Assembly (NCBI RefSeq): GCF_020085105.1
Contig: NC_058061.1
Coordinates: 1,501,784-1,565,783, forward strand
Length of the DNA stretch: 64,000 nt
Direction of reading: 5' to 3'
From: Siniperca chuatsi
Lineage: Eukaryota; Chordata; Actinopteri; Centrarchiformes; Sinipercidae
The notes beneath the pieces were generated by a model. The model was not told the origin of the DNA. It saw only the letters and a list, made by a program, of their open reading frames with translations, and made no database searches. Shown in pieces: positions 6,701 through 63,843 of this stretch. The stretch's first letter is position 1; every line of letters starts with the position of its first letter. Made by a program: the position numbers and the translations under genes.

Positions 6701-9700
6701 ACATGTACTGGATCCAGTAGACCAGACCACTGAACGGCAGCTAGACCTCAGTCAGCCAGAGATCTGACTGGGAAGCAGAGAATACATTACACCTGCCATC
6801 ACACTACAACTGACTTTCAGATCATTTTCCGTGTCTGTAGAGCTCTAATCGGCCTTGTGAAGCAAGTCAGGCATGCTTAAAACCTCCTGGTTCCTGAGGA
6901 CTTTCACGTCCTCTAAAGGCAGCCTCAAAACTTTCCTTTTATTCCTTTTCAATAACCGACAATTTGACCAAACAAATCTGTTCCTATACGATCGCTATAC
7001 GCCTACCTAAAGAGCCCTCCAGCTACACATCATAATGACCACACTTCCTTATATTTGCAGTACATTTCCCCCACATCTATAAACACCAATGTTTCCCTCC
7101 AGGCTCCCTGCAGGCTCTTGGCTTATCTTTCCCTGCATAGCTGCCATCACCATGGTGCCAGACAAATACTTTATGAGCTGCAACAACTGAGGAACAATGT
7201 TTCTGCTGGCTGCAGGAGGAGAAGTTTCTGAACTGACCACAGTTTCAACACAGCACTTTTTTAGGTAACTGGTGCAGCTGAGCTTAAGTCTCTCTAGTAA
7301 ACATCATAAAAAAAAGACATCTGGTGGCCATCAGAACCATTATCTTCTACTGTAAGTCCAGTCTGCAGGGCATTTACTGTGAAACGTTTAAACAGGCACT
7401 CTGAGGGGGCATTGTGATAGCCTAACCTGCCTCAAACAACTGTCAAGCCCCTGCAACGGGACTTTCTTAAGGCCCCAGTGTGCTTCAAATAAAGTACGAT
7501 TGTTATCCAGCATCTAAAACCCCCTCCCGCCACGCTTTTCTGATGTCAGAATTAGGGGTGACTCTGATTTATTAATAAATCCAACATCAACTTCTCATTG
7601 TGCGAGAAACAGAGGTTAACTGAAGTATATGTTCGGTGGATTTTCTATATTTTAGCAGCTGTTTGAGGAAACTACTGAGCCTTTTTAAACATCAAACTAT
7701 ATATCTGTGAGGAGTTTTTCAGCAGGAACCAACGGGCTCGCAGCTGAGAGCCGCAGACAGGAAGTCAGACGGTGCTGAGATCTGTTGACAAGAAGAAAAA
7801 TACAGAATATCGCCAGCCTTGTCCTCTAGACTAAATCAATAAGCAGAGTTTATCTGATTAACATCACTTTTCGGCCTCGTTAGCCGTCTCCTTCCCAAAA
7901 TGTGACGCGACAGCAGACAAAGCTGAGTGGCAGCACGAGTCGTGCTGATGCACAGAAAATACACTGCAGGCAGCAGAGCCCAGGCTGCTTTGTATGATTT
8001 TACAGGCTTTTAAAGTATATTCTAGTTCTAAACGTAAAACACATATTTAGGGAGTTACGAGTGGAATACAACAGCAGGCTGAGGAGGATTTTTACACAGT
8101 CCATGAACACATTTTGCCCCTCCGCCCAGTATCTTTAAAAGACCGTCAATGTGATCTTCAATCGGCACGAGCTCCATTCTTTCATTCTTCACACAACTAC
8201 TGTCACTTTCCACGTGAACGCCCGTGTGCGACATCATAAATGTCTTATGAAAGTGTGCGCTGCGGGAATTTATGGAAACCATGACTGCCTCAAACTAAAA
8301 ACTGTAAATCATTAGAAAATAATCAGCAGTAGTGTAAAATATATGCTGAAGGGATCAAACAAAAACCACCTGGTGTGGTCTTTAAAATCTTCAGTTGACC
8401 TTTGAACTTGATAACAGACTTTGCGTTACCTGAGTGGCGTGTCGGTCTCTCCCGGCTCGCTGCAGGTGGAGCGACGGGAGTTGGAGGCCGGCGAGGAGGA
8501 GGAGGAGATCGGCGGGGAATTGGAGGAGTGGTTAGATGCATGCGAGGAAGAGGAGGAGGAGGAGGTGGAGGTGTGGATGGAGTCCAGGGCCCTGGACAGC
8601 AGCAGCGAGGACGGCATACAGAGCCATGTCTCCAGGTCGGAGAACTTGGAGTAGCTCAGCATCTCCAGAACACTGCGGGAGGAGAGGCACACCAGCTGAA
8701 TCTGAATCCTTCACTACATAAACTGCAGCTGCAGGCAGAAAGTTCATTTTCATCCCACTTTTTAAAACAAACAGAAAGGAGAAAAGATAAAAGAGGAAAT
8801 AAAAGAGAGACAGAAAATATATCAAAACAAGGACAGAAATGTGCAGCGACTTTGCATCTCCGACACTCTGTGGGAGGCTGTTTCAGGGTTCACCTTCAGT
8901 TTCCAGCCTAGACCTCGAAGTCCCTGCTCTGAAGACCTGACACTCCTCTCCGAGGTCAGAGGTCATAACAGCTCCTTTCAGTAGAGAGAGGTCTCACCTT
9001 CTATGTCAAGAGTAACATTTAGAAATCAGCCCTACAGCTGATACCTGCGACAGTGTGTTGGGTGTCTCTGACAGCGATGAACCTCCAGAGAAGTATCAGC
9101 TGAATCTGCAGCTTTACGTTGTTTATCTGTTCGGCTGCAACTTTACTTAGCGCTGTCATGGCGTCGTTTCCAGAGAAAGAGCTGTCGCTCTGTAACTGCT
9201 GGAGGTGGAAATGAGCTGCTAACAAGTCCAACATGTCAACTTAAAAAAAAAAAAAAAAGGTCACAACTTGCTTCTTTGCATGTTTAAAGCTTGGGAAACG
9301 TGGTGTCTTATCTTAAGTATTTCTCTATAAACATTAAATATGCATGACTAAAGAAGCAACATCAAAGTTAAACAAACATATTTAGCAGTGGGAAGAACAC
9401 AAAATGCAGAAATCTCTCATGAAATAACCCAAACTGTTTAAACTGTGGCAGAAAACAGTGTTCGTGTAGGATCCGATCGCTCACAGTAAGAAGCCGATTA
9501 TAAAAAACAGGGTCTTTAAAAGTGACGAACGACTATTCTCATTATCAGCTAATTAATTAATTCTGTTTTTGAACAATGGATGAATTGTTCAGTGTATGAA
9601 ATGGCAACAAAAATTAACACAAACCTGAATACAAAACACTTTATCAAGGCCAGCAGTGTGAAAACCCTTAGAAAGAAGCAGCAAAGCTTCACGAGCCACA

Positions 9701-12150: not shown

Positions 12151-15100
12151 GAAAATCAACAAAATGATGGAGAACAGCAGGAAGGAGAAAAAAGGAAATA
12201 AACAAAAGGATGGAGAACAGCAGGAAGGAGAAAAAAGGAAATAAACAAAAGGATGGAGAACAGCAGGAAGGAGAAAAAAGGAAATAAACGAAAGGATGGA
12301 GAACAGCAGGAAGGAGAAAAAAGGAAATAAACGAAAGGATGGAGAACAGCAGGAAGGAGAAAAAAGGAAATAAACGAAATGATGGAGAACAGCAGGAAGG
12401 AGAAAAAAGGAAATAAACATGGAAAATAAACGAAAGGATGGAGAACAGCAGGAAGGAGAAAAAAGGAAATAAACATGGAAAATAAACGAAAGGATGGAGA
12501 ACAGCAGGAAGGAGAAAAAAGGAAATAAACATGGAAAATAAACGAAAGGATGGAGAACAGCAGGAAGGAGAAAAAAGGAAATAAACGAAAGGATGGAGAA
12601 CAGCAGGAAGGAGAAAAAAGGAAATAAACGAAATGATGGAGAACAGCAGGAAGGAGAAAAAAGGAAATAAACATGGAAAATAAATGAAAGGATGGAGAAC
12701 AGCAGGAAGGAGAAAAAAGGAAATAAACGAAATGATGGAGAACAGCAGGAAGGAGAAAAAAGGAAATAAACAAAAGGATGGAGAACAGCAGGAAGGAGAA
12801 AACGAAATGATGGAGAACAGCAGGAAGGAGAAAAAGGAAATAAACGAAAGGATGGAGAACAGCAGGAAGGAGAAAAAGGAAATAAACAAAAGGATGGAGA
12901 ACAGCAGGAAGGAGAAAAAGGAAATAAACGAAAGGATGGAGAACAGCAGGAAGGAGAAAAAGGAAATAAACGAAAGGATGGAGAACAGCAGGAAGGAGAA
13001 AAAGGAAATAAACGAAATGATGGAGAACAGCAGGAAGGAGAAAAAGGAAATAAACATGGAAAATAAACGAAAGGATGGAGAACAGCAGGAAGGAGAAAAA
13101 GGAAATAAACATGGAAAATAAACGAAAGGATGGAGAACAGCAGGAAGGAGAAAAAGGAAATAAACATGGAAAATAAACGAAAGGATGGAGAACAGCAGGA
13201 AGGAGAAAAAGGAAATAAACATGGAAAATAAACGAAAGGATGGAGAACAGCAGGAAGGAGAAAAAGGAAATAAACGAAAGGATGGAGAACAGCAGGAAGG
13301 AGAAAAAAGGAAATAAACGAAATGATGGAGAACAGCAGGAAGGAGAAAAAAGGAAATAAACATGGAAAATAAATGAAAGGATGGAGAACAGCAGGAAGGA
13401 GAAAAAAGGAAATAAACGAAATGATGGAGAACAGCAGGAAGGAGAAAAAAGGAAATAAACAAAAGGATGGAGAACAGCAGGAAGGAGAAAAAAGGAAATA
13501 AACGAAATGATGGAGAACAGCAGGAAGGAGAAAAAAGGAAATAAACAAAATGATGGAGAACAGCAGGAAGGAGAAAAAAGGAAATAAACGAAATGATGGA
13601 GAACAGCAGGAAGGAGAAAAAAGGAAATAAACGAAAGGATGGAGAACAGCAGGAAGGAGAAAAAGGAAATAAACGAAATGATGGAGAACAGCAGGAAGGA
13701 GAAAAAGGAAATAAACGAAATGATGGAGAACAGCAGGAAGGAGAAAAAAGGAAATAAACAAAAGGATGGAGAACAGCAGGAAGGAGAAAAAAGGAAATAA
13801 ACGAAATGATGGAGAACAGCAGGAAGGAGAAAAAAGGAAATAAACGAAATGATGGAGAACAGCAGGAAGGAGAAAAAAGGAAATAAACAAAAGGATGGAG
13901 AACAGCAGGAAGGAGAAAAAAGGAAATAAACAAAAGGATGGAGAACAGCAGGAAGGAGAAAAAAGGAAATAAACGAAATGATGGAGAACAGCAGGAAGGA
14001 GAAAAAAGGAAATAAACGAAAGGATGGAGAACAGCAGGAAGGAGAAAAAAGGAAATAAACGAAATGATGGAGAACAGCAGGAAGGAGAAAAAAGGAAATA
14101 AACATGTAAAATAAACGAAAGGATGGAGAACAGCAGGAAGGAGAAAAAAGGAAATAAAGGAAATGATGGAGAACAGCAGGAAGGAGAAAAAAGGAAATAA
14201 ACGAAAGGATGGAGAACAGCAGGAAGGAGAAAAAAGGAAATAAACGAAAGGATGGAGAACAGCAGGAAGGAGAAAAAAGGAAATAAACATGGAAAATATA
14301 GGAAAGGATGGAGAACAGCAGGAAGGAGAAAAAAGGAAATAAACGAAATGATGGAGAACAGCAGGAAGGAGAAAAAAGGAAATAAACATGTAAAATAAAC
14401 GAAAGGATGGAGAACAGCAGGAAGGAGAAAAAAGGAAATAAAGGAAATGATGGAGAACAGCAGGAAGGAGAAAAAAGGAAATAAACGAAAGGATGGAGAA
14501 CAGCAGGAAGGAGAAAAAAGGAAATAAACGAAAGGATGGAGAACAGCAGGAAGGAGAAAAAAGGAAATAAAGGAAATGATGGAGAACAGCAGGAAGGAGA
14601 AAAAGGAAATAAACGAAAGGATGGAGAACAGCAGGAAGGAGAAAAAGGAAATAAACGAAAGGATGGAGAACAGCAGGAAGGAGAAAAAAGGAAATAAACA
14701 TGGAAAATATAGGAAAGGATGGAGAACAGCAGGAAGGAGAAAAAAGGAAATAAACGAAATGATGGAGAACAGCAGGAAGGAGAAAAAAGGAAATAAACAT
14801 GTAAAATAAACGAAAGGATGGAGAACAGCAGGAAGGAGAAAAAAGGAAATAAAGGAAATGATGGAGAACAGCAGGAAGGAGAAAAAAGGAAATAAACGAA
14901 ATGATGGAGAACAGCAGGAAGGAGAAAAAAGGAAATAAAGGAAATGATGGAGAACAGCAGGAAGGAGAAAAAAGGAAATAAACGAAAGGATGGAGAACAG
15001 CAGGAAGGAGAAAAAAGGAAATAAACGAAAGGATGGAGAACAGCAGGAAGGAGAAAAAAGGAAATAAACAAAATGATGGAGAACAGCAGGAAGGAGAAAA

Positions 15101-15925
15101 AAGGAAATAAACATGTAAAATAAACGAAATGATGGAGAACAGCAGGAAGGAGAAAAAAGGAAATAAAGGAAATGATGGAGAACAGCAGGAAGGAGAAAAA
15201 AGGAAATAAACGAAAGGATGGAGAACAGCAGGAAGGAGAAAAAAGGAAATAAACGAAAGGATGGAGAACAGCAGGAAGGAGAAAAAAGGAAATAAACAAA
15301 AGGATGGAGAACAGCAGGAAGGAGAAAAAAGGAAATAAACGAAAGGATGGAGAACAGCAGGAAGGAGAAAAAAGGAAATAAACATGGAAAATAAAGGAAA
15401 GGATGGAGAACAGCAGGAAGGAGAAAAAAGGAAATAAACGAAAGGATGGAGAACAGCAGGAAGGAGAAAAAAGGAAATAAACATGGAAAATAAAGGAAAG
15501 GATGGAGAACAGCAGGAAGGAGAAAAAAGGAAATAAACATCGAAAATAAACGAAAGGATGGAGAACAGCAGGAAGGAGAAAAAAGGAAATAAACGAAAGG
15601 ATGGAGAACAGCAGGAAGGAGAAAAAAGGAAATAAACATCGAAAATAAACGAAAGGATGGAGAACAGCAGGAAGGAGAAAAAAGGAAATAAACGAAAGGA
15701 TGGAGAACAGCAGGAAGGAGAAAAAAGGAAATAAACATGGAAAATAAACGAAAGGATGGAGAACAGCAGGAAGGAGAAAAAAGGAAATAAACATGGAAAA
15801 TAAACGAAAGGATGGAGAACAGCAGGAAGGAGAAAAAAGGAAATAAACGAAAGGATGGAGAACAGCGGGAAGGAGAAAAAAGGAAATAAACGAAAGGATG
15901 GAGAACAGCGGGAAGGAGAAAAAGT
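12150..15925 (+). repeat. Large 43-bp purine-rich minisatellite (about 82 copies)
   Basis: Tandem array of the unit GATGGAGAACAGCAGGAAGG followed by AGAAAAAAGGAAATAAACGAAAG, 43 bp. I counted about 82 occurrences of GATGGAGAACAGC by eye. Variants: five instead of six A in the A-run (42-bp units, mainly about 12820-13300), junctions CGAAAGG, CAAAAGG, CGAAATG and AGGAAATG, and a 13-14 bp addition ATGGAAAATAAAC (also ATGTAAAATAAAC and ATCGAAAATAAAC). One unit near 12800 is shortened. C and T are rare on the + strand. All three minus-strand frames are open for more than 3.6 kb, because the unit has no minus-strand stop in any frame. The array lies between two divergent genes, with its left edge about 400 bp upstream of exon 1 of the minus-strand gene. 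Confidence 0.97.
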
Positions 15926-16115
15926 GACTGAAAGTAGGAAAAGAGAGGACAGAGATATGGAGAAAGAGAAAATAATTCTGTATTTCTTTAAGAAGGAGAG
16001 ACAGAATGGGAAAAGAAATAAGGAAGGAAAGAAGGAAGAAAGGAAACGTGGAAAAGAAGTGAAAAGGGAAAGAACGAGGGAAAGATCAGATAGAAGAAAG
16101 AAAGAAAGGACCCTT
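15925..16115 (+). repeat. Purine-rich flank, right side of minisatellite
   Basis: GA-rich, degenerate sequence (AAGGAAGGAAAGAAGG-type) continuing the purine strand bias for about 190 bp beyond the last recognisable unit. Confidence 0.8.
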
Positions 16116-18077: not shown

Positions 18078-21000
18078 ATGGGCGAGTCAGCGCTGGAGTG
18101 GTACTTTGATAACTTCATTGCAAATGTGAGTACAGGCTGCAGCTCCTCCACTCTGTGCACAAAAAGGGTCAGTTCACCCAAATGACATGTATCTCCTCAA
18201 ACAGTGGATCGTCCACAGAGCGCTTTCACTCGGACTGATGGCTGCTTGGATCTGACAGCGTTAACAGCTGACATGTCGCCTGCCTTAAAGGATGAAACTG
18301 CTGTGATTCTGTATTTGCGGTCGCAGCCGCCTCCATCGTTTTCACTGCAACCGTAACGTGCAGCAGAGTTTTATTCAGATGTTTTCAACTTGCCGCTGCT
18401 GTTCCTACTGAAGATGTAAATCTAAAAAAAACAGCTCACAAATATATAGTTTAATTTAAAAATAGGCTCAGTAATTTCCTGAAACAGCTGCTCACTAGTA
18501 ACAAATGTTACTCAAACAGGAGGAAATGGTGCATTTGTTGGGGACTATTTTCAGTGGCGGATTGATACACATTTTGTGCTCAGACAATTCTTGTTAATAG
18601 GATCCCTTCATCGTCGGTTTATTTCATGAGATTTGTCAACTGATGGTGTAACTCACTCAGTATTCTCTCGCTGCAGGACTCCTCGAAGATGGAGGAGGAG
18701 GAGGAGGAGGAGGTGAACGAAGAGCTGGGCGACAAGCTGTTCCTCAGCTTACTGCCTGATGAGCTCCTAACACTGTACGAGTCCAGCCCGGATGACACAG
18801 GTACGACAACAACTGAACCAAACTGTTTGTTTGAGCTGAAACCAAACAAACGAGCAGAGAATGAGAGCAGAACTGTCAACGTGTTGCCAGGCAGCAGCAC
18901 CAGTCGGGACTACAGCTCCCAGAATTCCACAGCAGCGGCCGAGCGCCCAGGTGGGTCGTCCATGCCGGAGCTGGGTGCCTCCCCCGTTCGTCCCACGACC
19001 CCCGTGATACCTGTGACACAGCAGCCAGAAAACATGCCACAGATACAGTAGGTCACCACAAAACAATCTCCTCGCAGGGTTCATTTAGTAGCTGTTCTGG
19101 AGCTTTCAGCGTTATTACACAGTCTTCCTCATCAGATGGATTTTGTCATGAAATCATAGGTTTCCATTTGGACTTTTTGTCCATATTGAATGTTCATTCT
19201 TGATGTTTGAAACAGTAGCTGACAAACAGGATCTCATCACGAGGTCTGCAGTCCTCCTCAGTGCCCTGCTTCCACAGACTGAGACTGAACTCACTAGTCC
19301 TGTGTGTCATGCTGCATTCATGCGTTGTTGTAAAAGTCCACGTCCAGTGTTGTGTGTTTGTGTGTTTGCGTGCAGGAACGTCATCTCCACGGTGAATCTG
19401 GGCTGTTGTCTGGACCTGCACTTAATTGCTTGCAAAGCGTGGAACGTAGAGTACAGACCAAAGGTACAGAAACTTGAAAACAGGACCCAGAAAAAGACAT
19501 GGACTCTACTTAATTAGGTCCCTTCCAGCTATTTATAAAACTGGGAACTGCTCAGGCGCCCCAGATGACCTGTAGGGGTAATACTTGTTAGTTTGTTTGG
19601 TAATCTGCACTGAAGCACAATAAACTGAAGGGCTTTCTCTCTGTATTTACACATGATCGTGAAGCCCTGTCTTGTAGAAGTGCCCTGTGTCAAAATCTAC
19701 TTTTAGCATCTTAAATATTTCACTTCATATTAAGGTTACATAATGCATATTCTTATTAACTTGGCTTTCAATCAAATTATAACCAAACTCACTTGGGTAA
19801 CCAGAGAAGGGCCCCTCTAGTGAGCTCTGAGGGAACTGAGATCAGCAAAGCTTCAGGTACCAATAATTTTACATGACTTTCTGATTTGAGTCGGCACTGA
19901 GGCTCTAAGAATAACTAAACTGTTTGCATGTTTGTTCTGTTAGACATTTTTGTAAAGTGGGGTGTAACGAACATTGCAGCTTCTAGGGATTTCAGGCTGG
20001 AAAACATGCTCCTCCGGGCTGTGCGTGGGCGAACGTGAAGTTCCAAGACACTCGCAGGGCTGTTTCTTTTATACTTTTATACAGATTTTTTTGCATTATA
20101 TATGTTTTTCTTTTCCATTTTGAATGTGCCAATCAGTGTGTTTGACACACACATTATTGAGATTTAGGAGGTGTGTGTTGGCTTCTCTGCGAACCTCTGC
20201 AGCCTGCAGTAACCCATAACACTCTTCACTGTGTAGACCCACAGCGTCATGTATCTTCAGAAAACCATAATTCCAGCCTTACCTCTTCATTTTCTCCACA
20301 GGAAGGTTAGAGAACAATTTAAGTTGTTAAGCAAGACCAAATCTGTGTCGTACAGTCCAAGGTGAGGCCAACTGCTTGGAAAACAACCTGTAAAGCTTCC
20401 TGTTGTGTTTCAGATTTACAAGGCACTCATCATGAGGATCCGTAAGCCACGAACCACAGCAATAATCTACAAATCTGGAACTATTGTCTGTACAGGAGCA
20501 AAAAGGTCTGTCTGCCTGTCTGTCTGGACTTATCCCCAATAACGGTGGTGCTGCAAGACAGTTTTCAGGACAGTGTATGACCCCCCCCCCCTGTGTTTGT
20601 GCAGTGAGGAGCAGTCACGGCTGGCGGCCAGGAAGTACGCCCGCATAGTGCAGAAGCTGGGCTTCCCCGCCCGTTTCCTGAACTTTAAGATCCAGAATTT
20701 GGTGGCCAGTTGCAGCACCTTCCCACTCAGTTTGGAGCGACTGGCCCACCATCAGAACAGCAGGTCAGGAGACACTGGACGCGGTTGCATGAGCCACGAT
20801 CGTCCATCTGAATGTACCCGGTCCTGCTGACTGAAAGTGTTTAAGTACAATAAGATGATCACAAAGACTGGATGCAGGGGAAAACGTAGCCTAGCTCAAT
20901 CAAAAATGCAAAGAAAAAACAAACGCAAATCAAAGCCTTCTGATTTACATGTTGCATCGCGTTAGCTAACAAGCTAACAAGACTCAGCTAAGGTTTGTTG

Positions 21001-22682
21001 ACTGTAGAGTTAGGACAGCGCTCATGCCTGGCAACCAACCCCACTATGAGGACTTTTCAGTTCCATCGCTAACTGCTACTAAAACCACAATATCTCCTTT
21101 TTTACATGTCTACTTCTACACCTGTTCAATAATCAAGTTTCACTGAATTCTGATCGCTCATGAGACATTTTTATTCTCATGTAAGCAACATGGTTGGACA
21201 GCGAGTGGTTGCTGCCGCCCGACGGCATTGATGTTTTGTATTTTGATTCCATTTAAACAAATGTAACAATCAACACTGACTCGAGATCTTGAGAGACGTG
21301 CTTCAAGATGCGACCACACGTCCGTTTATTTCTCCAGTGTACTTAGTACTTAGTAAGCGTATTATCTCCAAAGGCAGCCATTCAAATCACACAAATCTCC
21401 TGCTGCCTGTATGATGTGAACTTAATAACTTTATGTATAATACAATAACTATGAGCTTGTTGGTTTCCCTGTGGGCATATAGTCCTAACGGAGCCTACTT
21501 GAAAACTAGTTTTTTCCATTGAATCTTGGACATTACCTTGGTGAACACAGTCGAAAACAGTTGTCTTCACCTGATGTCTTGTGAATTAAGAGTTACTCTG
21601 ATTATCGGTGAAGTCTCCATTTAAACACAGATACTGAGTCAGATTTTGTTTTTCACTCTCCACAGTTATGAACCAGAGCTGTTTCCTGCCCTCCACTACA
21701 ACGTGACGCCTGGCATAACTGCCACCATCTTTTCATCTGGGAAGATGTGTTTGAGCGGTAACTTAGCTGTGTTTGTGTCCACATATCCCAGGTTATTGAT
21801 CATGTGATACCACAGAGCAGAGCGGCCAAGCTTGATCAGGCGCAGACACACTGAGAGCAACAATTGATTTGTGTCAATAATCATATCTACAATGCACTGC
21901 GAGCATCCACGCTGATCATGAGCAGCAGCAGAAATCCACCGGAAACATAAAATGGTGTCTTGAAGGTTCTAGGGTTCCGTCAGGAGGTTCTAGTGGGCTT
22001 TGAGGAGGTTCTAGAAGTCCTTCACGTAGTTCTAGTGTTCCTACATGAAGTTCTTGTGGGCACTGAGGAGGTTCTAGGGGTCATTTACATTGTTCTGTTG
22101 TTCCTTTGGAGGGTTCTAATGGTCAATGAGTTTATTCTAGAGGTGCCTAGGTGGTTCTAGTGTTCCCTAAGAGGTTCAAGTGTTATTTTAGGAGGTTCAA
22201 ATGATCATTGAGAAGGTTCTAGAGTTCCTTAGGTAGTTGTAGTGTTCCCTTAAGAGTTTCAAGGGGTCCTTACAATGTTCCAGTAGTCATTGAGGAAGTT
22301 CTAGGGGTCACTGAGGAGTATCTAAGTCCTTAGTTCTAGTGTTCCTTTAAGAAGTTCTAGGGGTCTGACTGGATTCAATGGGTTTTTAAAGAGGTTTTAG
22401 GGGATGTTTAATATGGTCTTGTGGTGATTGAGAAGGTTCTAGGAGTCCTTTTAGATATCCTAAAGGTCACTGGAGGGGGTGGGGGTCTAGGGGTCCTTCA
22501 GGTAGTTTGTGTGATCACTTTCTTTTAATGTCCCTGGATCTGTAGAACCTGTGTTAACTTCACTGTGAAATAGTTCTAATTTTGAAGTCTTGTGTTAAAT
22601 TCCAGGGGCTAAAAAGGAAGCTGAGGTCTACGAAGCGTTTAATATCATCTATCCGGTCCTGAGCTGCTTCAGGAGGCAGTGA
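18078..22682 (+). CDS. tbpl2: TATA-box-binding protein family, TBPL2/TRF3-like, divergent
   Basis: Core-promoter recognition factor of the TBP family, expected in the nucleus with TFIIA and TFIIB. Seven coding exons: 18078-18125, 18677-19047, 19376-19463, 20414-20505, 20605-20763, 21666-21757 and 22606-22682. All junctions are GT-AG and in phase, giving 308 aa and TGA at 22680. Residues 1-140 are a non-conserved N-terminus: an ALEWYFDNF motif that aligns with the LELYLD motif of TBPL2, a Glu run, then [11 protein letters not shown]. Residues from about 141 are the two TBP repeats. These keep [43 protein letters not shown] and YEAFNIIYP. The repeat-1 intercalating Phe pair is Tyr/Tyr (PKIYKAL, IIYKSG); the repeat-2 pair is Phe/Phe (PELFP, TIFSSG). 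Thr in LTGAK is Ser (CLSGAK). The linker before SYEPEL is about 3 residues short. Start context is GCAGCCATGG. I see about 60% identity to TBP, far below usual TBPL2 conservation, so it could be a separate fast-evolving paralogue rather than the orthologue. It is not TBPL1, which lacks [14 protein letters not shown]. Confidence 0.88.
20581..20591 (+). repeat. C11 tract in splice acceptor of TBP-like exon 5
   Basis: Eleven consecutive C, 13 bp before the exon start at 20605, form the polypyrimidine tract of that acceptor. Mononucleotide C runs are length-unstable. Confidence 0.85.
21955..22510 (+). repeat. Degenerate GGTTCTAG tandem array in last intron of TBP-like gene
   Basis: Repeats of AGGTTCTAGGGGTC, AGTTCTAGTGTTCC and TTTAAGAGGTTC words at a loose 20-45 bp spacing. 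It fills most of the 848-bp intron before the last coding exon. The same family resumes downstream of the gene. Confidence 0.85.
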
Positions 22683-23784: not shown

Positions 23785-24350
23785 TTTTGTGGTCCCTGAG
23801 GAGGTTCTAGAGCTCCTTTAGGTAGTTGTAATGTTCCTTTAAGAGGTTCAAGGGGTCGTTACGATGTTCTAGTGGTCAGGAAGGTCTATGGGACCTTAGT
23901 TCGAGGGTTTCTTTAAGTCATTCTAGGGGTCTTGTAGATACTTCTTGAGGTCATCACGGTACTAGAGTTCTTAGTTTTCCTTTAGGTGGTTCTGGTGTTC
24001 TTTTAGGATGTTCTAGAGGTTCTTTATGTGGTTCTAGGTGATTCTTGAATGTAAAATGTGAAAATAAAAAGTAAACAGTAACTAAAGCCATCAGATGAAT
24101 GTAATGGAGTAACATCTAAATTGTTCTAGCGTCCCTTAGGTAGTTTTAGCGTTCTAGAGGTTATTGAGGAGGGTCTAGACATTCTTTAGGTAGTTCTTTT
24201 GTTCCTTTAAGAGGTTCAAGGGGTCGTTACGATGTTCTAGTGGTCAGGAAGGTCTATGGGACCTCAGTTCTAAGGTTTCTTTAAGTCATTCTTGTGGTCA
24301 TCAAGGAGGAGTTCTCAGTTTTCCTTTAGAGCATCCTAAAAGAACACCAG
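23785..24350 (+). repeat. Second block of GGTTCTAG array with a 105-bp direct duplication
   Basis: Same words as the intronic block. Two segments of about 105 bp, starting near 23832 and near 24198, are almost identical over GTTCCTTTAAGAGGTTCAAG, GGGTCGTTACGATGTTCTAG and GTCAGGAAGGTCTATGGGAC. A TACTT-type fragment (about 24055-24115) separates them. Confidence 0.85.
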
Positions 24351-26654: not shown

Positions 26655-27180
26655 TTGGTGATATTATATATTTTATTTCTTGTCATTAATTCCCATGTTC
26701 AGACTCAAACCATCATGAACGTCTCTGCTAACAGGTGTGTGTGTGTAAATCACAGCTGATGGATCTTCTTCCTCCATCGTTGTCCAAAAACTATTAAAAC
26801 ACATCAGCGAGCCGCTCTGCTGCACTGGGTGACATGTTCCTTCATCACCACGAACACACACACTGTAGTTTATTCTGCCTCAGCCCCACACACACCGTCC
26901 TGCTGCCCCAAACACTCACTACAGCACCACATGTGGATTCATCCGCCGCTGGAAATAGTCCCCAACAGATGCTCTGTTTCCTCCTGTTGGTCTGATAAAA
27001 ACTACAGCGAGCAGCTGTTTGAGGAAACTACTGAGCCTTTTTAAACATCAAACTACAGATCTGTGAGGAGTTTTTAAAGATCTTCAGCAGGAACCAATGG
27101 GCTCGCAGCTGAGAGCCGCAGACCTGAGAGTTGGTCTGGGCCTGCACATGGGGTTTGATGACAAGCAGAATGATACTTTA
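26655..27180 (+). repeat. Dispersed repeat family X, copy 2 (longest)
   Basis: Longest of three copies in this window. It includes the segment CCACATGTGGATTCATCCGC, CTGGAAATAGTCCCCAACAG and the shared tail. It carries two internal segments absent from copy 3. No open frame of note; probably non-autonomous. Confidence 0.85.
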
Positions 27181-33510: not shown

Positions 33511-34010
33511 CCCAGCTGGCTAGCTAGCGTTAGCTACTCGGCTACATGGCAGCAACAAATCGAGCCAAGCAGAATCCGACTGTAATAACTTGATTTCCAC
33601 GATGTAGACGTTACATTGACACATTGTGTAAAAACCAAAATGAATCAAAGTACTTCGCCCAGTCGTGATGGCAGATTAACTGGTGTTCAATCAAACCTTT
33701 TGGCTTTACAAGTTTTTGCTAAAAGGCTAAAATGACTCATTCTGACACTACAAAAGCGAATTATTACGCAGTTTTATTCTTTCAGTGGCTTAAATGGTAA
33801 TTTAGTATCTCTTAACTAAAACTTAAAACTTGTTTTATTTATCATAATCGTCTCATTTACGTCAGGCCACTGTAGCTGTGCCAGAGGCCCGTTGACAATC
33901 AGATCTTTAGACTGAGGTCAACACAAGAGACAGAATCCTCAACACCTCTTTAATTTTCTGTTTTCAGCTAGCTGTTCTGTGATTGGCTGATCGCTGACAT
34001 CAGTATCGAG

Positions 34011-34484
34011 ATGGCCCACCTCTTCCTCGCCAGTAAGATCACCATGCCGGACGACCTGCACAGCAAAGGTGGCGCCAGGATCCCCAGGAGCGCCATGAGG
34101 ATGCCGAAATCAATCTCTGCCGAGAAGCTGAGTCGGGACAAGCCCAGGAAGGACCACAGCGTCGTCGTGACAGCGCACGTCCCGCACCTCAACGAGGTCC
34201 AACTGATGGCGGCCACTGGCGGCGCCGAGATGTCCTGCTACCGCTGCACCGTGCCATTCGGCGTGGTCGTCCTCATTGCCGGCATCGTGGTCACGGCGGT
34301 GGCGTACACCTTCAACTCCCATGGGTCCACCATCTCGGTGCTGGGACTGGTGCTGCTGTCTGCTGGACTGGGCCTGCTGGGCTCCAGCGCCATCTGCTGG
34401 AGGGTCCGACTGAGGAAGAAGAAGGACAAACGGAGGGAGAGCCAGACCGCCCTCCTGGCCAGCCAGGGATACTGCGTGGCCTGA
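34011..34484 (+). CDS. tmem100: Transmembrane protein 100
   Basis: Two-pass membrane protein of the TMEM100 family. In mammals it is a BMP9/BMP10-ALK1-induced endothelial factor needed for vascular development, and it modulates TRPA1-TRPV1 in sensory neurons. The 157-aa product is somewhat longer than the mammalian protein (about 134 aa), with the extra length in the variable N-terminus. The diagnostic part is clear: EVQLMAATGGAEMSCYRC at about 62-79, membrane segment 1 at about 82-101 (VVVLIAGIVVTAVAYTFNSHG), membrane segment 2 at about 106-130, then a basic juxtamembrane stretch (RLRKKKDKRRESQTALLASQ) that matches the family C-terminus. The coding region is a single exon; a TTTTCAG acceptor ends at 33967. 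An in-frame TAG at 33969 supports the ATG at 34011, the first ATG after it. One or more upstream non-coding exons are expected, as in mammals, but I could not place them. Many teleosts carry a and b copies; which this is cannot be told here. Confidence 0.96.
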   Translation: MAHLFLASKITMPDDLHSKGGARIPRSAMRMPKSISAEKLSRDKPRKDHSVVVTAHVPHLNEVQLMAATGGAEMSCYRCTVPFGVVVLIAGIVVTAVAYTFNSHGSTISVLGLVLLSAGLGLLGSSAICWRVRLRKKKDKRRESQTALLASQGYCVA

Positions 34485-48674: not shown

Positions 48675-49031
<357 letters not shown>

Positions 49032-63148: not shown

Positions 63149-63426
63149 TAATAATCCTGAATAACGGCCTCAGCTCTCGGCAGGGAGACGGCCGCCGCTC
63201 GGGAGCAAACCGCCCGTCTTTAAGCAGCTGGTAGGCGGCTGTTACCATGGAAACGGATGATAAATGTCAGCTCGTGAGCCGGGAATATTATAAAGACATG
63301 AAAGGTTTTGTTGATAATCCTCCTGGCTCGGAAACAGGAAATAATCCGGTGCCAAAGCGAACAATAAAATGCGTTGACTCATATTCTGGATATTTTTAGT
63401 GCTGTGCTTCTTTACTTCTTGTAATT

Positions 63427-63843
63427 TAAAGGAAAAGTCTGGTGATTTTCTGTATTTCTGTATGTTCAGACTCAGACCAGCAGCGAACGTATCTGCTAAC
63501 AGGCGTTTATTCTGCCTCAGCCCCACACACACCGTCCTGCTGCAGCACCACATGTGGATTCATCCGCCGCTGGAAATAGTCCCCAACAGATGCACTGTTT
63601 CCTCCTGTTGGTCTGATAAAAACTACAGCGAGCAGCTGTTTGAGGAAACTACTGAGCCTTTTTAAACATCAAACTACAGATCTGTGAGGAGTTTTTAAAG
63701 ATCTTCAGCAGGAACCAATGGGCTCGCAGCTGAGAGCCGCAGACAGGAAGTCAGACGGTGCTGAGAGACGGAGCGACGTGCTGCTGGGTTGAGTCTGAAC
63801 GTTGGATTTGTTGACAAGAAAAACACAGAACAACACCAGAATT
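63427..63843 (+). repeat. Dispersed repeat family X, copy 3
   Basis: Nearly identical to copy 2 from TTTATTCTGCCTCAGCCCCA through GGCTCGCAGCTGAGAGCCGC. It lacks the GTGTGTGTGTAAATCACAG region and a 17-bp CCCCAAACACTCACTAC segment. It retains the end GTTGACAAGAAAAACACAGA, shared with copy 1. Confidence 0.88.

Follow-up and report, generated by a model that had tools for sequence, protein, structure and literature searches.

According to passages of PMC3142196 and PMC7221094, the vertebrate TBP family has three members, TBP, TBPL1 and TBPL2. A divergent TBP-family gene in the fish Siniperca chuatsi raises the question of whether it is one of these three or a further member. The gene lies at 18078-22682 (+) of a 64,000-nucleotide stretch of contig NC_058061.1, here called the window (C20:1501784-1565783 within the 718.8-Mb assembly). 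The original prediction, made from the letters of the window, suggested a fast-evolving oocyte TBPL2. Since the genome has a complete canonical tbpl2 elsewhere, on C15, the window gene must be counted as an extra paralogue and not as the ordinary TBPL2. DNA-contact residues of the window protein are changed in both lobes of the core, and the core change since the split from tbpl2 lies almost wholly on the window copy. The reading that we tentatively prefer, and to which we give slightly less than an even chance, is that of a young TBPL2 paralogue, an extra fourth TBP gene, which would have kept its TFIIB and N-lobe partner surfaces while its DNA recognition changed.

Gene structure and changes in the core domain

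The window protein matches the Pfam TBP family (PF00352) in two stretches (E 8.9e-54; 179.7 bits against a cut-off of 22.9), and in the PDB it matches human TBP best (E 1.1e-73). Chance is no issue for this assignment. The gene has seven exons, six GT-AG introns and an unbroken frame of 308 codons. The coordinates first proposed proved exact, with the stop codon falling on the predicted end. The features of the gene are as follows.

18078-18125 (+): exon 1; 12 of 16 residues as in canonical tbpl2 exon 1 (MDESALERYFDDSIAN), with the same GTGAGTAC donor, phase 0
18677-19047 (+): exon 2 as modelled, the counterpart of tbpl2 exons 2 and 3
18801-18857 (+): 57-nucleotide GT...AG stretch that coincides in place and phase with tbpl2 intron 2; its length is divisible by three and it holds no in-frame stop
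19376-19463 (+): exon 3, start of the N-lobe
20414-20505 (+): exon 4, N-lobe strands, carrying both Tyr substitutions
20417-20419 (+): TAC, Tyr at the position of human TBP F193, from sequence and alignment
20468-20470 (+): TAC, Tyr at the position of human TBP F210 (N.L5.1), from sequence and alignment
20605-20763 (+): exon 5, helix H2 of the N-lobe and the linker, conserved (SEEQSR..QNLVAS), followed by the first part of the C-lobe, where two of the three deletions lie
21666-21757 (+): exon 6, SYEPEL and the Phe pair kept; R290N, R295G, L299T, V307C, T309S and one deletion
22606-22682 (+): exon 7, C-terminus and stop codon
22792-22797 (+): AATAAA, likely polyadenylation signal by direct reading, about 110 nucleotides past the stop

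Exon 2 encodes an acidic run, an LLPDEL motif and an SQNSTAAA...GSSM..LG..ASP tail homologous to tbpl2. The 57-nucleotide stretch within it is possibly a very short intron, giving a product of 289 amino acids, or an exonised one, giving 308; both product variants were included in the alignments. A degenerate, GTTCTAG-rich repeat, about 20-21 bp per unit, was observed in intron 6 (21964-22309) and again downstream of the gene (23977-24046).

Residues are numbered by the 335-amino-acid human TBP, anchored on Phe193, Phe210, Phe284 and Phe301 (section 6 of PMC3142196), and the comparison reference was the TBP of the same genome, whose core matches human TBP letter for letter across the stretch NIV to FRK. 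The alignment confirmed that both intercalating Phe residues of repeat 1 are Tyr (F193Y and F210Y), that the Phe pair of repeat 2 (F284 and F301) is retained, and that a contact Thr of repeat 2 has become Ser (T309S), all of which had been predicted. Repeat 1 also carries V165I, R192I, L208I and K214T, and repeat 2 also carries R290N, R295G, L299T and V307C. The accompanying claim that both repeats are intact does not hold in full for repeat 2, which lacks K261, L269-V270 and M291 through three deletions, all in frame.

Both base-contact Asn residues (N163 and N253) are retained, as are SYEPEL with its two glutamates and R227, R231, R235 and K239 of helix H2, in agreement with the prediction that the TFIIB contact and the basic helix are kept. 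Over a list of 23 contact positions, of which the arginines, serines and lysines are presumed contacts, the window gene is changed at 11 and canonical tbpl2 at none. Table 1 of PMC12529657 lists 17 residues of yeast TBP; by hand count (yeast number plus 94), the window gene is changed at 7 of them. Section 13 of PMC7221094 gives R235, R239, E284 and E286, in a 339-amino-acid numbering, as important for transcription; the two arginines are R231 and R235 in our numbering, and the two glutamates are those of SYEPEL.

Origin of the gene from tbpl2

A family search of the whole genome (at least 11 matches) detected TBP-like exons at four places, namely C1, C15, C16 and the window, and a genome search with the window protein (at least 13 matches) found no fifth TBP-like locus. 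The gene on C1 is TBP and that on C16 is TBPL1. The proposed check for a second, canonical tbpl2 was positive: the C15 gene encodes 329 residues, has all four Phe residues, and agrees with TBP at 162 of 172 core residues (94% identical). A Dapper-family gene, taken as dact1, is found about 100 kb away from it, and a passage of PMC4236578 reports teleost tbpl2 as adjoining dact1. None of the 13 Dapper matches in the genome is on C20. An exon adjoining canonical tbpl2 presumably belongs to ATG14; it matches the ATG14 family PF10186 only at E 0.037, and across the genome nothing matched this family at E 0.001. Among the papers listed from a mostly open-access literature, none seems, from its title or the start of its abstract, to describe a second fish tbpl2.

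Judged by its sequence, the window gene descends from tbpl2, as had been proposed from its N-terminal motif. Exon 1, the N-terminal tail and intron DNA are common to the window gene and C15 tbpl2, the six introns are at tbpl2 positions, and the noncoding DNA of the gene aligns to tbpl2 and not to TBP. Some of the compared noncoding stretches were picked after the alignments were seen, and identity over aligned intron positions, which controls found to be inflated by free gaps, was not used as a clock. Trees of the core alone were weak and conflicting: the five-sequence protein tree placed the window gene outside tbpl2 plus TBP at 30.1/57, while the four-sequence nucleotide tree joined it to tbpl2 at 72.2/70.

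Several other identities were considered and rejected. The gene is not the tbpl2 orthologue, whose conserved teleost locus adjoins dact1 and fbxo34: it lies near TMEM100 on C20, while the dact-linked tbpl2 is on C15 (fbxo34 was not searched). TBPL1 is a separate gene on C16. A processed retrogene is rejected by the six introns, and a pseudogene with a broken frame or broken splice sites by the intact frame and 12 intact splice ends. An ordinary TBPL2 core, which passages of PMC3142196 and PMC7755920 put at about 92-95% identical to TBP, would also have four Phe residues; the window core is identical to its own TBP at 112 of 168 positions, and two of the Phe residues are Tyr.

An origin as an ohnologue of tbpl2 from the teleost genome duplication was rejected on TMEM100 placement and synonymous divergence (dS), on moderate evidence with a one-gene control. 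TMEM100 matches were found on C20 and C21, two on each, and weakly on C9, with none on C15. The dS between the window gene and tbpl2 is 0.68 over the core, against a saturated 6.1 over 94 codons for the single tmem100 comparison, between copies on C20 and C21 that were assumed to stem from the genome duplication. The only gene recognised as shared by the 184 kb around the window and the 110 kb around C15 tbpl2, among the best 60 of 133 matches between open reading frames (ORFs), was tbpl2 itself; the remaining matches were read as repeats. Because of the low dS, the absence of TMEM100 from C15 and the single shared gene, the window gene looks like a dispersed, intron-containing duplication younger than the teleost genome duplication.

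Evolutionary rates and constraint

The cores of the window gene and C15 tbpl2 differ at 52 of 168 positions (69% identical). With TBP as outgroup, 47 changes were unique to the window gene and none to C15 tbpl2 (chi-square 47.0, p 7e-12), which places the change almost entirely on the window copy. The pairwise ratio of nonsynonymous to synonymous divergence (dN/dS) of the core was 0.33. A ratio of 1 was rejected (2dL 23.7), and 0.5, the value expected with a free window branch, a fully constrained tbpl2 branch and equally split dS, was not quite rejected (2dL 3.5). For the N-lobe the pairwise ratio was 0.21 and 0.5 was rejected (p 0.006). Pairwise dN/dS differed among three segments (p 0.018), one of which, the exon-5 segment, was picked after the alignments were seen; the two-lobe split was not. 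Over the 36 codons from SEEQSR to LVAS, the window gene and tbpl2 differ by 3 amino acid changes. A 40-codon stretch this poor in changes turned up in 0.3% of 20,000 permutations, and there was no such synonymous gap (P 0.96). Assuming a roughly even synonymous split between the two copies, purifying selection on the N-lobe and the basic helix is supported but not proved.

The asymmetry is not the one originally predicted. In the pairwise comparison repeat 1, whose two Phe-to-Tyr changes are conservative ones, is the more constrained lobe and repeat 2 the looser. A three-branch model gave the same order of lobes, though it rejected neutrality for neither and is too weak to prove the difference.

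We also simulated neutral evolution from C15 tbpl2, with substitutions only, over the 329-codon frame. At K 0.34, 5 of 4000 runs kept the whole frame free of stops, and at K 0.2 the share was 1.3%. The rarity of such runs, the even share of dS, if it holds, and the in-frame deletions together argue that the window gene has been coding through most of its history; a recent decay is possible.

Possible function and alternative explanations

In the proposed mechanism, the window protein would still form the TBP saddle and bind TFIIB and its N-lobe partners (TAF1, BTAF1, Brf1 and perhaps TFIIA), and would grip DNA differently. R290, R295 and K214, which we take to be DNA-backbone contacts, are all lost, so a weaker grip on DNA is to be expected. 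The Tyr/Tyr repeat 1 and the more polar, arginine-poor repeat 2 may weaken or re-tune TATA recognition. In a passage of PMC7221094, Phe-to-Tyr at L5.1 affects TATA sequence binding, and TBPL1 has Trp at N.L5.1. The Tyr at L5.1, the lost backbone contacts and the polar set at L299, V307 and T309 would therefore favour either a changed or relaxed choice of core promoters or a competitor for TFIIA and TFIIB. An altered or relaxed TATA specificity, as first suggested, is plausible. One possible role is that of an initiation factor specialised for other core promoters; another is competition for TFIIA and TFIIB, as is reported for TBPL1. Either role would probably be played in the germ line, a guess from where the parent tbpl2 works.

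A number of observations weigh against a working fourth factor. The pairwise dN/dS of the C-lobe was 0.505, as one unconstrained branch would give (0.5: p 0.97), and 12.5% of neutral runs at K 0.34 left the C-lobe alone without a stop; for the whole frame, the stop-free share was 8% at K 0.1 and rose to 26% at K 0.05. In the three-branch model the window-branch dN/dS of the core was 2.26 and 1 was not rejected (p 0.65), and likewise for repeat 1 (0.62, p 0.75) and repeat 2 (20, at the bound, p 0.51). This model assigned a synonymous core change of 0.10 to the window branch and 0.53 to the tbpl2 branch, a split that the saturation of TBP leaves poorly determined. Change affected 11 of 23 contact positions and 41 of the 145 remaining sites (Fisher p 0.087), so that contacts are neither protected nor clearly over-hit. 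The three C-lobe deletions could harm the fold, and N189, presumably a TFIIA contact, is Arg in the window protein. The C-lobe ratio, the unrejected window-branch value of 1 and the unprotected contacts would all suit a decaying duplicate: a copy that once functioned, is now largely released from constraint and is degenerating into a pseudogene, with contact changes that serve no function. Such a duplicate has to be reconciled with a gene that is free of stops and frameshifts, whose 12 splice ends are intact and whose three core deletions all keep the frame, as well as with the pairwise constraint on the N-lobe, the helix-H2 scan and the few whole-frame survivors at K 0.34. We consider decay unlikely, though a serious candidate.

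It is also conceivable, if improbable, that positive selection drives the DNA face to a new specificity, for example by tracking changing germ-line or transposon promoters. The maximum-likelihood window-branch ratio above 1 points this way, as do the changes L299T, V307C and T309S on the minor-groove floor, where Table 1 of PMC12529657 has ORF24 of Kaposi's sarcoma-associated herpesvirus (KSHV) polar too. However, that ratio does not differ from 1, and it depends on the same poorly determined synonymous split. Still less probable, in our judgement, is a dominant-negative modulator that has lost DNA binding and acts solely by tying up N-lobe partners such as TFIIA or TFIIB. The loss of the three presumed backbone contacts and the C-lobe deletions, with SYEPEL and the H2 basic residues in place, would fit such a protein, but the base-contact Asn residues and the C-lobe Phe pair are kept. 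Sequestration of TFIIA has a precedent in TBPL1 (section 13 of PMC3142196).

Compared with known TBP-family proteins, the preferred reading, a young TBPL2 paralogue with partner surfaces kept, has parallels and differences. The gene resembles TBPL2 (TBP2, TRF3), the vertebrate oocyte paralogue, in exon structure, exon 1, N-terminal tail and introns, and differs in being an extra locus with Tyr/Tyr, repeat-2 contact changes and deletions. As in TBPL1 (TLF, TRF2), F210 is changed (to Trp there and Tyr here), C-lobe contacts are changed and SYEPEL is kept, but TBPL1 is at the C16 locus without the tbpl2 N-terminal tail, and the first Phe of its repeat 2 is His, whereas it is Phe in the window gene. 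With TBP it shares the two-lobe core and PF00352, although the TBP core of this genome is identical to human and the window copy matches it at only two-thirds of positions. In PMC12529657, as far as its passages go, KSHV ORF24, a viral TBP mimic that acts at TATTWAA promoters, is polar at the positions of yeast TBP L205, V213 and T215, like the window gene; it keeps all four Phe residues and is without the TFIIB glutamates, in contrast to the window gene with its repeat-1 Tyr residues and retained glutamates. A common origin of the polar changes in the two is not claimed.

A further and more doubtful extension is that the window gene represents a fish-lineage-specific fourth vertebrate TBP paralogue, a TBPL2 copy turning to a new core-promoter specificity with partner faces kept and the DNA face re-tuned in both lobes, which would parallel early-animal TBPL1 by a second route. 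Few proteins are as strongly conserved as the TBP core, which is identical in this fish and in humans. An intact fourth member, if true, would be a natural experiment on changing the DNA face with partners kept, and together with the little-changed parent in the same genome it would permit the post-duplication evolution of core-promoter specificity to be tested on a pair of genes.

Neighbourhood of the gene

A TMEM100 gene was identified at 33972-34484 of the window (Pfam E 1.2e-50). The ORF at 48684-49031, without a Pfam family, is one that we take to be SMIM36. A Pfam search of ten neighbouring ORFs gave one match below the cut-off, Pox_F15 (E 0.048), which was taken as chance, and nothing else. 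A serine-rich ORF at 8426-8710 (-) is coding-looking (MLSYSKFSDLETWLCMPSS..) and has no Pfam match. A long tandem array with units of about 43 and 56 bp occupies 12153-15975, and three minus-strand frames across it are open from stop to stop over 1309-1485 codons; these were read as an effect of repeat composition and not as a gene. The ORFs at 26760-27044 and 63378-63665 end in near-identical sequences of about 38 residues (HMWIHPPLEIVPNRC.., one difference), an ending that probably belongs to a dispersed repeat.

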